Below are positions 2,557-36,706 of a stretch of DNA of 43,115 bases, one piece after another. The notes beneath the pieces are model-generated. The model searched no databases, had not been told where the DNA came from, and saw only the letters and a program-made list of their open reading frames with translations. Position numbers and translations under genes: made by a program. Source of the stretch: Hydrogenophilus sp. (lineage in GTDB: Bacteria; Pseudomonadota; Gammaproteobacteria; Burkholderiales; Thiobacillaceae); NCBI GenBank assembly GCA_020692235.1, contig JAIMKU010000011.1, positions 1-43,115 on the forward strand, in the 5' to 3' direction. Each line of letters opens with the position of its first letter. The first letter of the stretch is position 1.

Positions 2557-3603
2557 TCAGCGCCGGTGTTCGGCCGCCATGGGCTGCACTATTGGGGTTG
2601 GTGAGTGCTTACCGGTGGCCATGGTCCGCCCGATAGCGTGCGCGTCATCGGCGATTTCGTAGCGGCCTAACCCGAAGGTGGCGTTCTTGCCGACGTGCAG
2701 CCATTGGCCGAGGTGTAGGAAGGGCAGGAAGGGGACGAGGTCGCCGCCCAGGGTCCAGTCGCCGACCACGCCGCCGAGCGCCATTTCCTGTTTCTGGCGG
2801 TTGGAATAGCGTTTCCAGTCGCGCCAGCGCAAGTGTTTTTCGCTTTCGATGGCGGCACTGGCCTCGGCCAGGGCGTGAAAGTCGAGGTCGAGTTTGTGAC
2901 CGAGGTGGAATTCGCAGATCAGCGCCGTGCGTCGGACCAGGCCGATTAACAGGTCGCGCGCGGTAAGTTCCGTCGCGCCGAGCGGCCTGCCATTGCGCTG
3001 CAGGCGTAACGGGGTGTCGAAGCGCAAGCTGACAGGACGGCCCGTGGCTGCCGTGCCGGACAGGGTGTCATGGCTGCGCGGTTCGACGGCCAGGGACCGC
3101 CCTATGGTCGGTTCATGTTCCCGTAATTTGCCCTCGTCCGCCGCGTACACGGTTACACCCTCGTGGTCGATCCGTTGCAGCCGCGCCGTGCCGTCGCTCC
3201 TGCCGACGCCGTGCTCGAAGGCGCGTTGCCAGGCGTACACGATCAGCGGCAGGTGTTTCAGGCTTTGACCGACCAGGACGAGTTGAAAGGCCAGGGTCTC
3301 GCCCGGCGCATAGATACGTTCGCCCCAGTCGGGCGGTTCGACCACGAATGGGTTGGGTACCTGCGAAAAATTTTGCAATGCGTGCCCCGCCGGCGGCGGC
3401 GTTTCGAACACCGCCGGATAAGGACAGGTGCGGTACAGCGGGCACGGTTTGCACTCGCGCTCGCGGGTCATGCAGGCGGTGCGCCGCAGGGCATTGCCAA
3501 ACACGCCACGCAGGGTGGAACCGGCATACTCCGGCAGCCGGATGGGCGCCTCGACGGTAAATTCGAAACGGTAGCGGGCAGCGGGGAAGGGGCTGGGGAG
3601 CAT
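2557..3603 (-). CDS. cas6: Cas6-family pre-crRNA processing endoribonuclease (RAMP)
   Basis: A 348-residue RAMP protein of the Cas6 type that accompanies type III systems. It would cut the array transcript within repeats to give crRNAs with a repeat-derived 5' handle. The N-terminal region has the pattern LPEYAGSTLRGVFGNALR. A four-cysteine cluster follows (C44, C51, C54, C60, in RECKPCPLYRTCPY), usual in this subfamily. The C-terminus carries the RAMP glycine-rich loop GKNATFGLGRYEI near residues 307-319. It starts two bases after the stop of the CARF-HEPN gene, within the same operon. It is unrelated in detail to the Cas6-like protein at 33287-33940. Confidence 0.88.
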   Translation of the reverse strand: MLPSPFPAARYRFEFTVEAPIRLPEYAGSTLRGVFGNALRRTACMTRERECKPCPLYRTCPYPAVFETPPPAGHALQNFSQVPNPFVVEPPDWGERIYAPGETLAFQLVLVGQSLKHLPLIVYAWQRAFEHGVGRSDGTARLQRIDHEGVTVYAADEGKLREHEPTIGRSLAVEPRSHDTLSGTAATGRPVSLRFDTPLRLQRNGRPLGATELTARDLLIGLVRRTALICEFHLGHKLDLDFHALAEASAAIESEKHLRWRDWKRYSNRQKQEMALGGVVGDWTLGGDLVPFLPFLHLGQWLHVGKNATFGLGRYEIADDAHAIGRTMATGKHSPTPIVQPMAAEHRR

Positions 3604-28615: not shown

Positions 28616-28634
28616 GCGTTCCTCTTTACTTACA

Positions 28635-28723
28635 GTCGAGAGTGGAGAGTGGAGAATAAAGGCCTTGGTGTCCTTCGTTTCACCACTCTCGACTCTCGAC
28701 TATTGAGACAATAGCCGAGAGTC
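28635..28723. repeat. Interlocking inverted repeats between dsrC and dsrM
   Basis: The stem arms 28691-28705 and 28709-28723 pair at 14 of 15 positions around an AGA loop (GACTCTCGACTATTG). The right part of the region can alternatively pair with 28635-28645 (GTCGAGAGTGG with CCACTCTCGAC at 28683-28693). Two mutually exclusive foldings are therefore possible, a shape expected of a processing or attenuation site that separates abundant dsrC from the membrane-complex genes. Confidence 0.75.
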
Positions 28724-28760
28724 GAGACCGCGCGGCGCGATGCCCGCGGTCAGAACAACA

Positions 28761-29096
28761 TCAGATACAGCCAGTCGGCTTGGGCAGGCCGGCGATCTTG
28801 CAGGCCTGTTTGGCGGGACCATAGGGGAACAGTTTATACAGGTACTTGTTGCTGCCCTTGTCCGCGCCGAGCTTTTTGCTGATGGCCTTGGTCAGCACGC
28901 GAATGGCCGGAGCGATCTGGTACTCGGAATAATATTCACGCAGGAAGTTGATGACTTCCCAGTGGTTCGGGGTCAATTCAACCTTTTCTTCGTTGGCCAG
29001 ATAAGCGGCGATGCCCTCATCCCAGTCGGACAGATTAATCAGGTAACCCTCTTCGTCTACTTCAAAGGACTTGCCAGCGGCTTCAATCATGGGCAT
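28761..29096 (-). CDS. dsrC: DsrC, sulfur carrier and DsrAB substrate protein
   Basis: A 111-residue DsrC/TusE-family protein with the full C-terminal arm (CKIAGLPKPTGCI) and both redox cysteines, Cys99 and Cys110. Sulfur bound as a persulfide or trisulfide on this arm is handed from DsrEFH to DsrAB and DsrMK. The AGGAG before the start is well placed. It closes the dsrEFHC block. A relative lacking both cysteines is encoded at 33983-34315. Confidence 0.96.
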   Translation of the reverse strand: MPMIEAAGKSFEVDEEGYLINLSDWDEGIAAYLANEEKVELTPNHWEVINFLREYYSEYQIAPAIRVLTKAISKKLGADKGSNKYLYKLFPYGPAKQACKIAGLPKPTGCI

Positions 29097-30271: not shown

Positions 30272-30297
30272 GGGCCGGGCGCTTGCGCTCCCGGCCC
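30272..30297. repeat. GC-rich hairpin between dsrB and dsrE
   Basis: GGGCCGGG at 30272-30279 pairs perfectly with CCCGGCCC at 30290-30297. In the dsr transcript the stem is followed by AAGUUAG rather than a U-run, so full termination is unlikely. It may be an mRNA stabiliser or processing point at the end of dsrAB. Confidence 0.7.
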
Positions 30298-31383: not shown

Positions 31384-31436
31384 TCTTGCCTCCAACTAGG
31401 TGAGATCAGAAAACTTGTTGGTATCCGTTATCTTTT

Positions 31437-31468
31437 CCTGTTTTGCGGACGTTAGCCCGCGAAACAGG
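31437..31468. repeat. Hairpin between dsrA and dsrB
   Basis: CCTGTTTTGCGG (31437-31448) is complementary to CCGCGAAACAGG (31457-31468) at 11 of 12 positions, with an 8-base loop. No T-run follows on the dsr strand. It is one of four hairpins at dsr gene junctions. Confidence 0.7.
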
Positions 31469-31479
31469 AAGCAATCGGA

Positions 31480-32781
31480 TTACGCGGCGGCGTTCTTTCG
31501 CTTGTTCCACTTGGCCGCTTCCTCATCCCAACCATCCATGCGGACGTAGGGATTGGTACGCGGGTGGGTAATCATGCTGGGATCGATCGGGATATCGAGA
31601 CCTTCCAGGTAGTTGACCAGACCAATACGCTCGATCATTTCGCCAGTACGCTCATGTTCCAATGCGTTCTCGGCAAAGAAGTCCATCATGTTGCGTGCCA
31701 GATCGTTCAGCTTTTTGAAGTCCTCGTCGGATTTCATCTTCATGAACGGGATCATCACGGTACCCAGCGAGGCGCCGATCTTCAACACGCTCTTGCCGCC
31801 GACCAGGATGGTGACGCCCTTGTCCTTGCCGGGCAGCAGGGCGCCGGGCATGACATTCAGACAGTGCATGCAGCGCACGCAGTTATGGTTGTCGATCTCG
31901 ATGCAATTGGTATCAGAGACCGCGACCTTGGTCATGCCTGCGGCCGCCGCTTTGCCATTGTTCTTGACCAACTGAATGGCGCGAGTCGGACACATGCCGA
32001 TGACCATGTTGGTCAGGTCTTCCATGTTGTGAGCGGTCAGCCAGGCGCGGGCCTGCTTCTCGTTGGCACGGATGCTGTCGCGCCAGGTGCCGATAGTGGC
32101 CATGTCAGAACGCTGGATGGCGTTCGTGCAGTCGTTCGGGCAGCCGGAGAACTTGGACTTGAATTTGTACGGCATGGACGGGCGATGCATGTCGTCCAGG
32201 TTGTTGTTGATGACGGTGCGCAGGGCGCGGGCTTCGTCATAACAGGACATTTCGCAGCGAGCGGCACCGACGCAAGACATCGAGCTACGCAGATCGGGGC
32301 CGGCGCCACCCATATCGAAGCCCATCTCGTTGAAACGGTCGAAGGAGCGCTGTACGTCGGCAGTCCTGATGCCCTGGAACATGATGTCGCCGGATTGGCC
32401 ATGCATGGCGATCAGGCCCGAGCCACCGGTTTCGATCCATGCGTCGCACAATTGACGCAGCAGGTCGGAGGTGTAATGCATGCCGGCGGGCGGCATGATG
32501 CGCAGGGTGTGGAATTCGGCTGCTTCCGGGAACTTCGGGGTGCCGTCGGCATTCTTCAGTTCGGTGAAGCGGGGAATAACGCCGCCGCCATAGCCGATCA
32601 CGCCCACGGTGCCGCCCTTCCAGTAGCCGGTGCGAGTCTTGTAGGAGGTTTCCAGTTGGCCGAGCAGGTCGACCATCATGTCGTTATCCTTTGCCAGCCG
32701 TTTGATGCCGGTTATGAAGCTGGGCCACGGGCCTTTTTCCAGCTCGTCCAGATTCGGCGTGTCATGCATTTTCTTAGCCAT
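31480..32781 (-). CDS. dsrA: Reverse dissimilatory sulfite reductase alpha subunit, DsrA
   Basis: A 433-residue DsrA. Siroheme-cluster cysteines lie at Cys170, Cys176, Cys214 and Cys218 (SCVGAARC and FSGCPNDC), and the inserted ferredoxin domain has NCVRCMHC (300-307). A clear AGGAG precedes the ATG. It is the first gene of the leftward dsr cluster and divergent from the small gene at 33046. The whole gene set (EFH, L, N, R present; no sulfate-reducer dsrD seen) indicates the oxidative pathway. Confidence 0.97.
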   Translation of the reverse strand: MAKKMHDTPNLDELEKGPWPSFITGIKRLAKDNDMMVDLLGQLETSYKTRTGYWKGGTVGVIGYGGGVIPRFTELKNADGTPKFPEAAEFHTLRIMPPAGMHYTSDLLRQLCDAWIETGGSGLIAMHGQSGDIMFQGIRTADVQRSFDRFNEMGFDMGGAGPDLRSSMSCVGAARCEMSCYDEARALRTVINNNLDDMHRPSMPYKFKSKFSGCPNDCTNAIQRSDMATIGTWRDSIRANEKQARAWLTAHNMEDLTNMVIGMCPTRAIQLVKNNGKAAAAGMTKVAVSDTNCIEIDNHNCVRCMHCLNVMPGALLPGKDKGVTILVGGKSVLKIGASLGTVMIPFMKMKSDEDFKKLNDLARNMMDFFAENALEHERTGEMIERIGLVNYLEGLDIPIDPSMITHPRTNPYVRMDGWDEEAAKWNKRKNAAA

Positions 32782-32912: not shown

Positions 32913-32976
32913 GGGGTAAATCGGTTTTTCGTGGGAGTGGTTCGTACCTACCCGATCAGGTAGGTTTGTTTACCCC
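32913..32976. promoter_or_regulatory. Nested inverted repeats between dsrA and the rightward genes
   Basis: An inner stem ACCTACC/GGTAGGT (32946-32952 with 32959-32965, 6-base loop) lies inside an outer stem GGGGTAAA/TTTACCCC (32913-32920 with 32969-32976). The inner stem is followed on the plus strand by TTGTTT, so it resembles a terminator or attenuator for rightward transcription. It may also be a binding site controlling the divergent genes. The 264-bp gap holds no gene. Confidence 0.6.
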
Positions 32977-33045: not shown

Positions 33046-33300
33046 ATGGACGAGATCAAGTCGCTGACCAAATTCCGCAACCCATATGGCAACCAGGAGA
33101 TCGAGTTCCAGGAGGTACGCTATGCGTCTGGCGGGACGCCCATGATGCGCCTGCGCATCCGCGAACGCGGCGCGCGCTTCACCATCTTCGACGTGGATCC
33201 GGTGACGGCCAAGCATTGGGCTGAGGAAATGTTGCAATGGGTCGCCAGCCAGGAACTCGGACCGGTCGCTTCGACAGGAGACGCTCATGCGGATGTATAA
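33046..33300 (+). CDS. Small conserved protein of unknown function next to dsrA
   Basis: An 84-residue soluble protein (MDEIKSLTKFRNPYGNQEIE...) with alternating beta strands, then VDPVTAKHWAEEMLQWV. I recognise it as the kind of small protein found with sulfur-oxidation genes, but no function is known to me. The ribosome binding site is weak. Its end overlaps the next gene by 14 bp, so the two are coupled. It is divergent from dsrA. Confidence 0.8.
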   Translation: MDEIKSLTKFRNPYGNQEIEFQEVRYASGGTPMMRLRIRERGARFTIFDVDPVTAKHWAEEMLQWVASQELGPVASTGDAHADV

Positions 33301-33940
33301 CCCGGATTGGGAAGCCATCAAGGATTTCCAGTACACCCCACGTTTCAAGGATTTGCATTTCGATCTGGTCGGTGCCGAGATTCCGGCCGACCATGGTCAA
33401 GCCCTGTTTGATGCCTTGGTGGCGCATCTGCCGTGGTTGAAGGACGAACCCGCCGTGGGTGTGCATCCTATCCATGGCGAGCCGACCGGGCGCAACGACA
33501 ACCTGATTATCAGCCGCCGCATCAAACTGGTGCTGCGCCTTCCCGTGGCGCGCATGGACGATGCCCGTGTACTGAGCGGCAAGCGCCTCGACACCGGCGC
33601 CGGCGAGCTGGCCGTCGGCCAGGCGAAGGAGAGACTACTGACGCCCTTCGCCACCTTGTACGCGCCTATCGTCGATTTCGGGACCGACGATGAAGCGGTT
33701 TTTTTGGCGGCGGCGCGCGTCGAATTGGAGGCCATGGAGATTCGCTGCCAGCTCCTTCCAGGCAGGAAGCGTAAAATTCACCTCGCCGAGGGGGCAGTAT
33801 TGGGTTATAGCCTCATGCTGCACGAAGTCGACCCTCAGCAATCATTGCGGGTTCAGGAACAAGGCTTGGGACGCCATCGCCGCTTTGGCTGCGGTATATT
33901 TGTCCCCCATAAATCGATTAAGGCAGTCGTGATCGACTGA
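33287..33940 (+). CDS. Cas6/Cmx6-family RNA endonuclease-like protein, away from any CRISPR array
   Basis: A 217-residue protein matching the Cas6/Cmx6 (type I-MYXAN) family along its length: an N-terminal strand then IPADHGQALFDAL (32-44), LPWL (48-51), AVGVHPIHGEP (56-66), a central LVLRLPVARM and SGKRLDTG, and the closing pattern LRVQEQGLGRHRRFGCGIFVP (187-207), the Gly-rich RNA-binding loop. An AGGAG lies 6 bases before the ATG at 33287. Cas6 proteins bind and cut RNA at hairpins or repeats. No CRISPR array or Cas gene is near it; it sits between a small dsr-associated gene and a DsrC-like gene, divergent from dsrA. Family membership is fairly strong by eye; a role outside CRISPR is inference. 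His36, in ADHG, is a possible catalytic residue. Confidence 0.82.
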   Translation: MRMYNPDWEAIKDFQYTPRFKDLHFDLVGAEIPADHGQALFDALVAHLPWLKDEPAVGVHPIHGEPTGRNDNLIISRRIKLVLRLPVARMDDARVLSGKRLDTGAGELAVGQAKERLLTPFATLYAPIVDFGTDDEAVFLAAARVELEAMEIRCQLLPGRKRKIHLAEGAVLGYSLMLHEVDPQQSLRVQEQGLGRHRRFGCGIFVPHKSIKAVVID

Positions 33941-33982
33941 GTCGATCACAGTTTTTTGTAACCTGTGTATAGGAGAAAAATC

Positions 33983-34315
33983 GTGGGATACGTACTAAAC
34001 GGCGAAGAGCTGGAAGTCGATGACGAGGATTTCCTGACCGAAGCCAATTTTAGCGATGAGATCGTACCGATCATCGCCGAAGCCGAAGGCCTGAAACTGA
34101 CTGAAGATCATTGGAAGGTCGTCCGCTTCATGCGCCAGAAATACCAGGAAGATGGTCATACCCCCAACTTCCGCAACATGTTCATGGGCATGGATGAAGA
34201 ATATCCCGGCACCGACTGGAAGAAGGTATTGTATGAGCTGTTCCCCAAACAGCCGAACCGTCAGTCTTCCAAGGTGGCCGGCCTGCCCAAGCCCTATGGC
34301 AAGGGCGGTTACTAA
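33983..34315 (+). CDS. DsrC-like protein lacking both redox cysteines (RspA type)
   Basis: A 110-residue DsrC/TusE-family protein (GYVLNGEELEVDDEDF, EDHWKVVRFMRQKYQE). The C-terminal arm reads SSKVAGLPKPYGKGGY: both cysteines of DsrC (Cys99 and Cys110) are replaced, by Ser and Gly. It therefore cannot carry sulfur and belongs with the cysteine-free relatives that have been proposed to be regulators. It starts at GTG 33983, 7 bases after AGGAG; a GTG 18 bp upstream lacks such a site. It has no other cysteine. Confidence 0.9.
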   Translation: MGYVLNGEELEVDDEDFLTEANFSDEIVPIIAEAEGLKLTEDHWKVVRFMRQKYQEDGHTPNFRNMFMGMDEEYPGTDWKKVLYELFPKQPNRQSSKVAGLPKPYGKGGY

Positions 34316-34447: not shown

Positions 34448-34468
34448 TGGTCACTGGCCACTGGATTT

Positions 34469-35320
34469 ATGTTCTACACCACACTCGTTTCAACCGACGA
34501 TCTGGCTTATCATCTGGATGATCCGCACTGGGTCGTCGTGGATTGTCGGTTCGCCCTGACCGATCCCGAAGGCGGCCGTTCGGCGTACGGTAAAGGTCAC
34601 ATACCAGGCGCCCACTACGCTCATCTGGACGACGACCTGGCCGGTCCGACCGGGCCTGACACCGGGCGGCATCCGTTGCCCGATGTCGAGACACTGGCCT
34701 TGAAGCTGTGTCGCTGGGGCGTCGGCGTCAACAAACAGGTGGTGGTTTATGACGATAGCTTCGGTTCCATGGCGGTTCGTTTGTGGTGGCTGCTGCGCTG
34801 GCTAGGCCATCCAGGCGTGGCGCTGCTCGACGGCGGTTACCCGAAATGGCTGCGCGAGCGGCGCCCGATCAGCCAGGAAACGCCCGTGCCGATCTGTAAG
34901 GACGCCTGCGCCAGGTTGCCGGAGCCGAGCCTGTATGTCACGGTCGATCAAGTCATGGCGGCCATGCGAAGCGGCGACAAGCTGATACTGGATGCGCGCC
35001 CCGAGCGCCGTTTCAGCGGCGAATATGAGCCGCTCGACCCGGTGGCCGGTCACGTGCCAGGTGCGGTCAACTGGAACTTTGAGGAAAACCTGGATATCGA
35101 CGGTACCTACTCGCCGCCCGAGGCCCTGCGCGAGAACTACCAGGCGTTACTGAAGGGGCGGGCGCCGTCCGACGTCATCCACATGTGCGGTTCCGGCGTC
35201 ACCGCTTGCCACAACATCCTGGCCATGGAGATCGCCGGCCTGTCCGGCTCCCGGCTATATGTCGGTTCCTGGAGCGAGTGGGTCACCGACCCGTCGCGTC
35301 CGATTGCGCTTGGAGAATAA
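34469..35320 (+). CDS. sseA: Two-domain rhodanese, 3-mercaptopyruvate/thiosulfate sulfurtransferase
   Basis: A 283-residue tandem rhodanese. The first domain (VVVDCRFALTDPEGG, HIPGAHYAHLDDDLAG) is inactive. The second has the catalytic loop CGSGVTA with Cys240, the form found in 3-mercaptopyruvate sulfurtransferases. It may feed sulfane sulfur into the DsrE/DsrC relay. The start MFYTTLVSTDDL (34469) fits the family better than the frame's earlier start in the repeat region. The next gene follows after 3 bases. Confidence 0.92.
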   Translation: MFYTTLVSTDDLAYHLDDPHWVVVDCRFALTDPEGGRSAYGKGHIPGAHYAHLDDDLAGPTGPDTGRHPLPDVETLALKLCRWGVGVNKQVVVYDDSFGSMAVRLWWLLRWLGHPGVALLDGGYPKWLRERRPISQETPVPICKDACARLPEPSLYVTVDQVMAAMRSGDKLILDARPERRFSGEYEPLDPVAGHVPGAVNWNFEENLDIDGTYSPPEALRENYQALLKGRAPSDVIHMCGSGVTACHNILAMEIAGLSGSRLYVGSWSEWVTDPSRPIALGE

Positions 35321-35978: not shown

Positions 35979-36392
35979 ATGATCCCCACAAATTCCCCAT
36001 TCCATCCCGACAACGAGACCGACTACCAGCGCTGACGCGAGGCCAAGCTGGCCGGCTATCCGACCCGGGGCGAGGACCTCATCGTCGAGGTGCGTAACCC
36101 CCATGCCCTGAGCGATTCCGAATATCGCGCCATGATCGACCGCGTCGCCAAGACCGGCATGGCCATCTACGCCACCGCGCTGGGCGAGGCCGAGGACAAG
36201 GCCGCAGTGCGTGCGCTGTCGGCCCGGTTTGGCCTGACCCATCTCGACGCCAACTGGCTGGCCGACGAAGACGGCATCTCCAGCCTGACCCCGCGCGACG
36301 AGGATACCGGCGGCAAGCGTGGTGACTACATTCCCTATTTAACGACCTACCTGTCCTTTTATGTGCGCATGTTTACGAATGGCATAAGCTGA
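35979..36392 (+). pseudogene. Truncated TauD/TfdA-type dioxygenase with an internal stop
   Basis: The reading frame from ATG 35979 matches the N-terminal part of a TauD-like 2-oxoglutarate dioxygenase. Codon 19 is TGA (36033-36035), in DYQR-stop-REAKLAGYP, where homologues have Trp (TGG). The frame continues with AMIDRVAKTGMAIYA, LTHLDANWLADEDGISS and RGDYIPY, then at about 36340 homology ends abruptly before the HTD iron-binding motif. The last 17 codons are unrelated and AT-richer. The iron site is missing, so the product cannot be an active oxygenase. The gene is broken twice. Confidence 0.85.
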
Positions 36393-36418
36393 AAGCGGTT
36401 CTAGCGTTGAGAGCAGTT

Positions 36419-36706
36419 ATGAGCCATAAGCACGAACATCTGTTGTATGCCCTGTTTCAGGATCCGATCAGCGGCAATATCCACTGGCGGGAGGTGGAGT
36501 CGCTGCTGGAGCACTTGGGGGCCAAGGTGGAGTCGCTGTCTGGCGCGCGCATTCGGATGGTGTTGAACGGTGTCGAAGGCGTATTGCACCGGCCGCATCA
36601 CAGCAAAGTGTGCGGGCGCGAGGAGATCAAGCACATCCGCGAATACCTGGCCTCGGCGCGGGTGACCCCGTCGCTGTACGAGGCAACAAAACACCCCGGC
36701 GGTTAG
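36419..36706 (+). CDS. Orphan HicA-like toxin-family protein
   Basis: A 95-residue protein resembling the HicA mRNA-interferase family: HWREVESLLEHLGAKVESL, RIRMVLNGVEGVLHRPHHS, with His in VLHRPHHS at the position of the catalytic His, then REEIKHIREYLA. No HicB antitoxin is encoded on either side; the upstream gene is a broken dioxygenase and mutL follows. Solo members of this family are often annotated as hypothetical. Start chosen at the ATG at 36419 over TTG 36407. Confidence 0.75.
   Translation: MSHKHEHLLYALFQDPISGNIHWREVESLLEHLGAKVESLSGARIRMVLNGVEGVLHRPHHSKVCGREEIKHIREYLASARVTPSLYEATKHPGG

Follow-up and report, generated by a model that had tools for sequence, protein, structure and literature searches.

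The DNA analysed here, referred to throughout as the window, is the whole of a 43,115-nucleotide contig of Hydrogenophilus sp. (JAIMKU010000011.1, assembly GCA_020692235.1), in which a gene of the Cas6 family lies beside the dsr genes of sulfur oxidation. Cas6 is the crRNA-processing protein of CRISPR-Cas systems. In the window, the gene is separated from dsrA by a DUF6967 gene and a 264-nt intergenic region, and is followed by genes for a DsrC paralog and a rhodanese-domain protein (Table 1). The first-pass annotation had described it as next to dsrA: the adjacency is indeed near and divergent, with one small gene in between. The overlap with this small upstream gene and the presence of a DsrC-like gene downstream, both noted in the same annotation, were confirmed by the family assignments. 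The start of the DsrC paralog is taken as the GTG at 33983, while the list of open reading frames begins it at 33965. Further downstream of the operon, a short frame at about 36045-36392 is similar to TauD-type dioxygenases, with no Pfam match, and a small ORF at 36407-36706 carries a HicA toxin domain (PF07927, E 1.3e-7).

Table 1. Features of the window and of related loci, with the basis of each assignment
Feature	Position	Strand	Basis and remarks
Cas6 of the Cmr locus, family PF10040 (contrast)	2557..3603	-	profile, BLASTP
dsrC-dsrM spacer, 16-bp stem with one G-U pair	28616..28760	-	by eye; candidate substrate or partial terminator
Canonical dsrC, both C-terminal cysteines, tail CKIAGLPKPTGCI	28761..29096	-	sequence, profile
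8-bp hairpin in dsrB-dsrE spacer	30272..30297	-	candidate RNA substrate
dsrA-dsrB spacer, imperfect hairpin (CCTGTTT...AAACAGG arms)	31384..31479	-	by eye; candidate substrate
dsrA, divergent from the Cas6 operon	31480..32781	-	TIGR02064, 477 bits
Palindrome ACCTACCCGATCAGGTAGGT, dsrA/DUF6967 intergenic	32946..32965		sequence; putative DNA operator
DUF6967 (PF22295), 84 aa	33046..33300	+	E 6.9e-28; 14-nt overlap with Cas6 gene
Cas6-family gene (PF09559/TIGR02807), dsr-linked clade	33287..33940	+	217 aa, ATG start; profiles, model
DsrC paralog, no cysteine, tail KPYGKGGY	33983..34315	+	PF04358, E 1.1e-29; TIGR03342
Rhodanese-domain protein (PF00581), 3' of DsrC paralog	34448..35320	+	Pfam; start uncertain
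GGGTAG/CTACCC palindromes in loci besides the window	L002-L012, L015, L017, L018, L020, L023, L026, L038, L046, L053, L072, L075		

Membership in the Cas6 family is indicated by curated profile cut-offs passed over the full domain and by a fold in which the C-terminal Gly-rich loop is present. The PF09559 'Cas6' profile matches with 199.2 bits (cut-off 26.7, E 8e-59), residues 22-210 of the protein covering positions 2-191 of the 191 in the profile, while NCBIfam TIGR02807 ('type I-MYXAN Cas6/Cmx6', of the 'equivalog' type, its name taken from type I-MYXAN CRISPR) gives 170.9 bits (cut-off 98.85) and the Cas6 models of PADLOC concur. An AlphaFold2 model built from 62 aligned sequences has the Cas6 fold, with a mean pLDDT of 92.4. 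The closest solved structure is the Cas6 of a type I-B CAST (8fcj chain B), matched with Z 26.6 and an rmsd of 1.8 Å over 196 residues (Foldseek E 2e-18; phmmer E 2.6e-16); the next matches are other Cas6 proteins at Z 10-17, among them those of P. furiosus and related ones at 15-17. The full-length Cas6-type pattern originally read from the letters, for which a profile search and a structure prediction had been suggested as checks, is thus upheld by both. As assembled, the source genome contains a single PF09559 gene. As had been stated, the Cmr locus, placed at the opposite end of the window, carries its own and different Cas6, which belongs to PF10040 and shows no meaningful similarity to the dsr-linked protein in BLASTP.

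The family was surveyed within Pseudomonadota and cyanobacterial plasmids, and its association with dsrA was followed in several sets of genomes. In a scan of 84,980 species genomes, which favours near relatives, 98 relatives were obtained and 80 kept; together with the window copy, dsrA lies divergently upstream in 78 of these 81 loci, and in the other three the Cas6 match starts at most 414 nt from the start of the locus. A class draw, namely 369 genomes sampled evenly from the window's GTDB class, in which betaproteobacteria are included, gave PF09559 in 118 and dsrA in 119 (112 above cut-off and 7 fragments); both genes occur in 111 genomes, PF09559 only in 7, dsrA only in 8 and neither in 243 (odds ratio about 480). 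Where the two share a contig, a distance of 4.5 kb or less separates the genes in 82 of the 84 pairs, all 82 of them divergent, and two are far apart (G375, G159); another 27 pairs are on different contigs. In six of the seven genomes with PF09559 and without dsrA (G117, G143, G177, G236, G349, G367, G368), the contig breaks off on the dsrA side after no more than about 2.3 kb; a dsrA fragment opens the contig of G368, and G349 is arranged differently. Among those with dsrA and without PF09559 (G120, G129, G160, G173, G257, G261, G288, G405), the contig ends near dsrA in G173 and G257. In the window's own family, the gene was found in 56 of 61 genomes and in 39 of the 40 good ones.

The survey beside dsrA that had been proposed in the first-pass annotation therefore gives dsrA in 111 of the 118 PF09559 genomes of the class, genomes without detected Cas1 included, and the homologues are not confined to CRISPR loci, as might have been the case, but go with dsrA. 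Outside the class the picture is different: a draw of 200 Pseudomonadota contained 45 genomes with dsrA above cut-off, 44 of them in other classes, and PF09559 was found in none of these 44, so the gene is a habit of one class and is not required for Dsr chemistry. In one family (f111), the Cas6-like gene is remote from dsrA and has a ribonuclease III gene as its neighbour, as seen by Pfam in locus L126 (G375), by tblastn in L173 (G276) and perhaps in L127 (G159), where an ORF of the same size and position is present.

The neighbours of the Cas6-like gene are also recurrent. DUF6967 sits between dsrA and the Cas6 gene in 73 of the 78 first-survey loci, and in the class draw it was found in 7 of 369 genomes, in four of them beside a Cas6-like gene; the three without PF09559 are G257, which has dsrA, and G156 and G273, which do not (their DUF6967 genes being at loci L144 and L145, respectively). 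The predicted structure is beta-beta-beta-beta-alpha (pLDDT 84.4), and 9 of the top 11 rows of the structural search are Pur-alpha or PC4 homologs, all with Z of 7.1 or less and a best Foldseek E of 0.048, which suggests a borderline resemblance to the PUR/PC4 nucleic-acid-binding folds. In many gammaproteobacteria, the space between dsrA and the Cas6-like gene is occupied by the gene of a TauD/TfdA-family dioxygenase (assigned by Pfam on two; examples are L131 8632-9561 and L128 5721-6569). A TauD-like gene divergent from dsrA is also present in L140 and L141, from other classes, with Cas6 absent.

A DsrC paralog is found within 1.5 kb downstream of the Cas6-like gene in 92 of 101 loci. The window paralog matches TIGR03342 with 82 bits (cut-off 53.5) and resembles the DsrC/TusE family by PF04358 as well; it differs from it in having Gly instead of Cys at the penultimate position, and the two C-terminal cysteines of the DsrC type are missing, with no cysteine at all in the protein. 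Such cysteine-less DsrC-like proteins were reportedly named RspA by Venceslau and co-workers in 2014. The feature is shared by the other paralogs: none of the complete tails has the penultimate Cys, replaced by Gly, and 88 of 92 end in KGGY, although 19 of 92 retain one Cys elsewhere among the last 16 residues. Among 70 canonical DsrC tails, 69 contain two cysteines. A passage of PMC3397948 states that DsrC of A. vinosum needs its penultimate cysteine to interact with DsrE; the paralog should therefore not carry sulfur in that way, and it may instead act as a competitor or a sensor.

As regards CRISPR itself, the neighbours of the dsr-linked Cas6 are dsr genes and not cas genes or arrays. No CRISPR-like array was detected in the window by Tandem Repeats Finder or by a script searching three regularly spaced exact 22-mers, which agrees with the original remark that none lies beside the gene; the scan covered this one contig, and arrays may exist elsewhere in the genome. 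The same script, which recovers the arrays of two of seven cyanobacterial control loci, found none in 133 entries (132 loci and the window, some overlapping), a scan that covered loci other than L140-L175. In the 27 split-contig loci, there was no match to cas queries taken from the window and one cyanobacterial operon, a comparison from which distant cas genes could escape. At the genome level, with absence of Cas1 as a proxy for absence of CRISPR, Cas1 was found in 39 and not found in 41 of 80 PF09559 genomes (completeness of 90% or more, contamination of 5% or less, the most complete being chosen from 117 further PF09559 genomes), and it was missing from 8 of the 12 single-contig ones. Likewise, it was not found in 25 of 50 first-survey genomes, picked from the 80 first-survey loci for their longer contigs; PF09559 is single-copy in 49 of these 50, the fiftieth having a second, partial match. 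Moreover, small genomes of 1.0-1.1 Mb (G089, G192, G305, G337, G401) keep PF09559 and have no Cas1. The term 'domesticated', used from the beginning for this protein, is thus well supported by the Cas1-less genomes and the company of dsrA. Carriage by phages or plasmids was considered and rejected: no relative was found in phage records, none of the nine stretches retrieved from viral contigs with one peptide pattern was confirmed, and the eight plasmid records each belong to a cyanobacterium.

The known proteins nearest to the dsr-linked clade are the type I-MYXAN Cas6/Cmx6 of cyanobacterial plasmid operons, with which it has in common the profile family, the C-terminal Gly-rich loop and R84. 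In the tree, 111 dsr-linked rows are split from seven cyanobacterial rows with support 100/98, these seven being the only rows outside the clade and the program giving a long-branch warning; the root was not inferred, and the tree does not give the direction of domestication. The dsr-linked set includes, as rows L082-L111, the 30 best matches of the PF09559 search in the class draw. Six of the seven cyanobacterial loci lie in cas6-cas3-cas8/cmx8-cas7-cas5 operons, in contrast to the dsr neighbours of the clade under study. On the plasmid of Gloeobacter morelensis (L115, 5968-6759), a PF09559-type Cas6 without annotated cas neighbours lies near a gene of the phosphoadenosine phosphosulfate reductase family and a cupin gene, possibly another non-CRISPR use. 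The type I-B CAST Cas6, part of a transposon-encoded Cascade, is 28% identical to the window protein.

Within the clade, the alignment of 111 proteins shows no variation at G193, G195, G201 and G203 of the Gly-rich loop or at R84, which are features typical of the family. Position 36, which by its place near the first helix would be that of the catalytic histidine, is His in 76 of 111 (including the window protein), Tyr in 29, Ser in 3 and Ala in 3, whereas it is His in all six aligned sequences of type I-MYXAN CRISPR operons and Asn in the type I-B CAST Cas6. Since His36 is replaced in 35 of 111, classical cleavage is not the function of the whole clade unless the active site has moved, for which H208 and K209, beside the Gly-rich loop, may be candidates. 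Both belong to a set of near-invariant residues proper to the clade (R78 in 109, E136 in 110, G159 in 110, H208 in 108 and K209 in 110 of the 111), not kept in the cyanobacterial set save for one R78. The gene is under purifying selection, with dN/dS of 0.033-0.351 across 16 close pairs (0.073 between the window and L002).

The region between dsrA and DUF6967 contains a further conserved element. Within the palindrome of this region (Table 1), which is probably a DNA operator, lies CCTACCNNNNNNGGTAGG, a sequence with no other exact match in the genome. Palindromes of GGGTAG/CTACCC half-sites, varying in order and spacing, are kept at this place in other loci and look like the operator of a dsr regulator; CTATCCC..GGGATAG-like forms were seen in some gammaproteobacterial loci (L034, L130, L131, L138). 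The palindrome as a target of the Cas6 protein was set aside, given that the half-sites occur in both orientations and at different spacings, upstream of the putative dsrA promoter.

The search for an RNA target was centred on the dsr spacers. In the window, hairpins are present in all three of the spacers dsrA-dsrB, dsrB-dsrE and dsrC-dsrM, two of them read by eye. When perfect stems of at least 8 bp were counted against shuffles, dropping spacers shorter than 25 nt or with ambiguous bases, they were over-represented in the same three spacers (A-B 17/72, 0.3 expected; B-E 13/36, 0.2 expected; C-M 20/64, 0.9 expected) and also upstream of dsrA (12/89, 2.5 expected), where they look like DNA operators. 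The other dsr spacers gave 0/19 (E-F), 1/9 (F-H), 2/68 (H-C) and 0/35 (M-K), and the counts were 3/100 downstream of Cas6 (2.1 expected) and 3/46 between DUF6967 and Cas6 (0.2 expected). Many loci have no such hairpins in their dsr spacers, and those that are present differ from each other in sequence and may be partial terminators. Strong, sequence-unrelated hairpins were observed in the dsrC-dsrM spacers of L130, L131, L133, L135-L137 and the window, which may serve as partial terminators or as stabilisers that raise dsrC.

The local hairpin energies of 11 regions of the dsr locus (up to the first 45 loci of each) had medians mostly near zero relative to shuffles, the exceptions being the regions upstream of dsrA (-1.4) and upstream of DUF6967 (-1.2), which are the same DNA, and dsrC-dsrM (-0.8). 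The consensus fold of the dsrA leader in 12 relatives amounted to six weak pairs (-1.7 kcal/mol), and among 88 clade-by-region tests of consensus folding over ten clades, six had z < -3.5, with no agreement between clades; on inspection, three of the six came down to unrelated hairpins following dsrC and to inverted repeats that adjoin a promoter-like element in the region upstream of dsrA, for which DNA operators are the better interpretation. Rfam gave nothing above the gathering score over 18000-38600. A post hoc comparison showed no link between hairpins and His36, hairpins being present at 15 of 30 loci with His and at 10 of 27 without it (Fisher p 0.42). The early suggestion of an RNase acting on dsr transcripts stands as plausible; the usual His is replaced in part of the proteins, a conserved RNA target was not found in these searches, and the hairpins do not track the histidine.

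Taken together, these data indicate that a Cas6-type protein was probably co-opted to work on RNA in sulfur metabolism, and not for immunity. Regarding its action, the chances are roughly even that it is a domesticated RNA-binding protein of Cas6 fold, perhaps a nuclease, which would act on hairpins of the dsr transcripts and so control dsr expression. According to this proposal, a Cas6-family protein off CRISPR duty would be a lineage-wide member of the reverse-Dsr locus in beta- and gammaproteobacteria, encoded in a small putative operon divergent from dsrA that would comprise DUF6967 (in most betaproteobacterial loci) or, in gammaproteobacterial ones, often a TauD-like dioxygenase in its place, followed by the Cas6-fold protein and the DsrC paralog. 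The Cas6-fold protein would bind structured RNA of the dsr transcript, the candidates being the hairpins that follow dsrA, dsrB and dsrC, and would cut it, or only bind it where the His has been lost; the proportions of DsrAB, DsrEFH and DsrC would be set in this way. Unable to carry sulfur at the usual cysteine, the DsrC paralog might compete for the partners of DsrC, a competition that would couple the control to the sulfur load of the pathway. There is room for such control in A. vinosum: on sulfide, the dsrEFH and dsrC transcripts exceed that of dsrA (a passage of PMC3397948, citing Grimm et al. 2010), and PMC3368242 describes a single transcript for the dsr cluster, dsrC and dsrS being the only genes for which additional promoters are named. 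As dsrEFH lies upstream of dsrC, these promoters do not account for the dsrEFH level, while RNA processing or unequal decay would. The more ambitious version, in which the Cas6-fold protein, a PUR/PC4-like RNA-binding partner and a DsrC paralog sensing the sulfur load form a dedicated post-transcriptional system acting at hairpins, where the dsr polycistron would be cut or capped, and tuning sulfur oxidation across beta- and gammaproteobacteria, is put forward tentatively, as a possibility on the doubtful side.

The same neighbourhood lends itself to other readings. The protein might bind or process RNA other than that of dsr, such as tRNA or a small RNA, its DsrC/TusE-like partner tying it to sulfur transfer to RNA; a DsrC/TusE paralog indeed comes after the Cas6-fold gene in 92 of 101 loci, TusE hands sulfur toward tRNA thiolation in E. 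coli (as a passage of PMC3397948 has it) and in G375 the Cas6-like gene abuts a ribonuclease III gene. Nevertheless, the paralog is devoid of the penultimate cysteine that TusE and DsrC use to carry sulfur, and the linkage to dsrA is far tighter than that to any RNA-modification gene seen in the loci, which makes a non-dsr substrate unlikely. Somewhat more unlikely still is a Cas6 fold reduced to a scaffold for protein-protein or DNA-level regulation, with no RNA role, working with the DsrC paralog at the divergent promoter: the palindromes with repeated GGGTAG/CTACCC half-sites upstream of dsrA and the 35 of 111 proteins that have lost the usual His would suit it, but the Gly-rich loop and R84 are invariant, DUF6967 also looks nucleic-acid-binding, and the Cas6 proteins of known function bind RNA.

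A further reading would be that of a spare Cas6 which matures crRNA on behalf of CRISPR loci elsewhere in the cell and stands beside dsrA by history. It could appeal to the full Cas6 domain and to the Cmr locus in the genome of the window; this Cmr locus, however, has its own Cas6, the gene order with dsr is conserved, and Cas1 was not detected in about half of the good genomes or in most of the single-contig ones, so this reading is very improbable.

The exapted CRISPR modules treated in PMC8730458 are multi-gene derived systems, e.g. the cas5-cas6-cas7-cas8 of Streptomyces; they are alike in serving other purposes, and a lone Cas6 in a metabolic cluster is not described in the sections of that paper that were covered. 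No paper on a dsr-linked Cas6 was found in the open-access literature, most subscription journals being outside this scope, and the words CRISPR and Cas6 are absent from PMC11406059, on the history of Dsr sulfur oxidation.

For the biology of these bacteria, the finding means that a clade of Cas6 accompanies the reverse-Dsr genes class-wide, in genomes of small as well as large size; among the good ones tested, about half have no detected Cas1. The labels of the two curated models, 'Cas6 Crispr' and 'type I-MYXAN CRISPR-associated protein Cas6/Cmx6', are misleading here, as they can mark sulfur oxidisers that have no CRISPR. If the protein acts on RNA, it would represent a CRISPR enzyme recruited for the control of metabolic genes, and would offer a handle on the way in which DsrAB, DsrEFH and DsrC come to differ in amount although a single dsr transcript encodes them.
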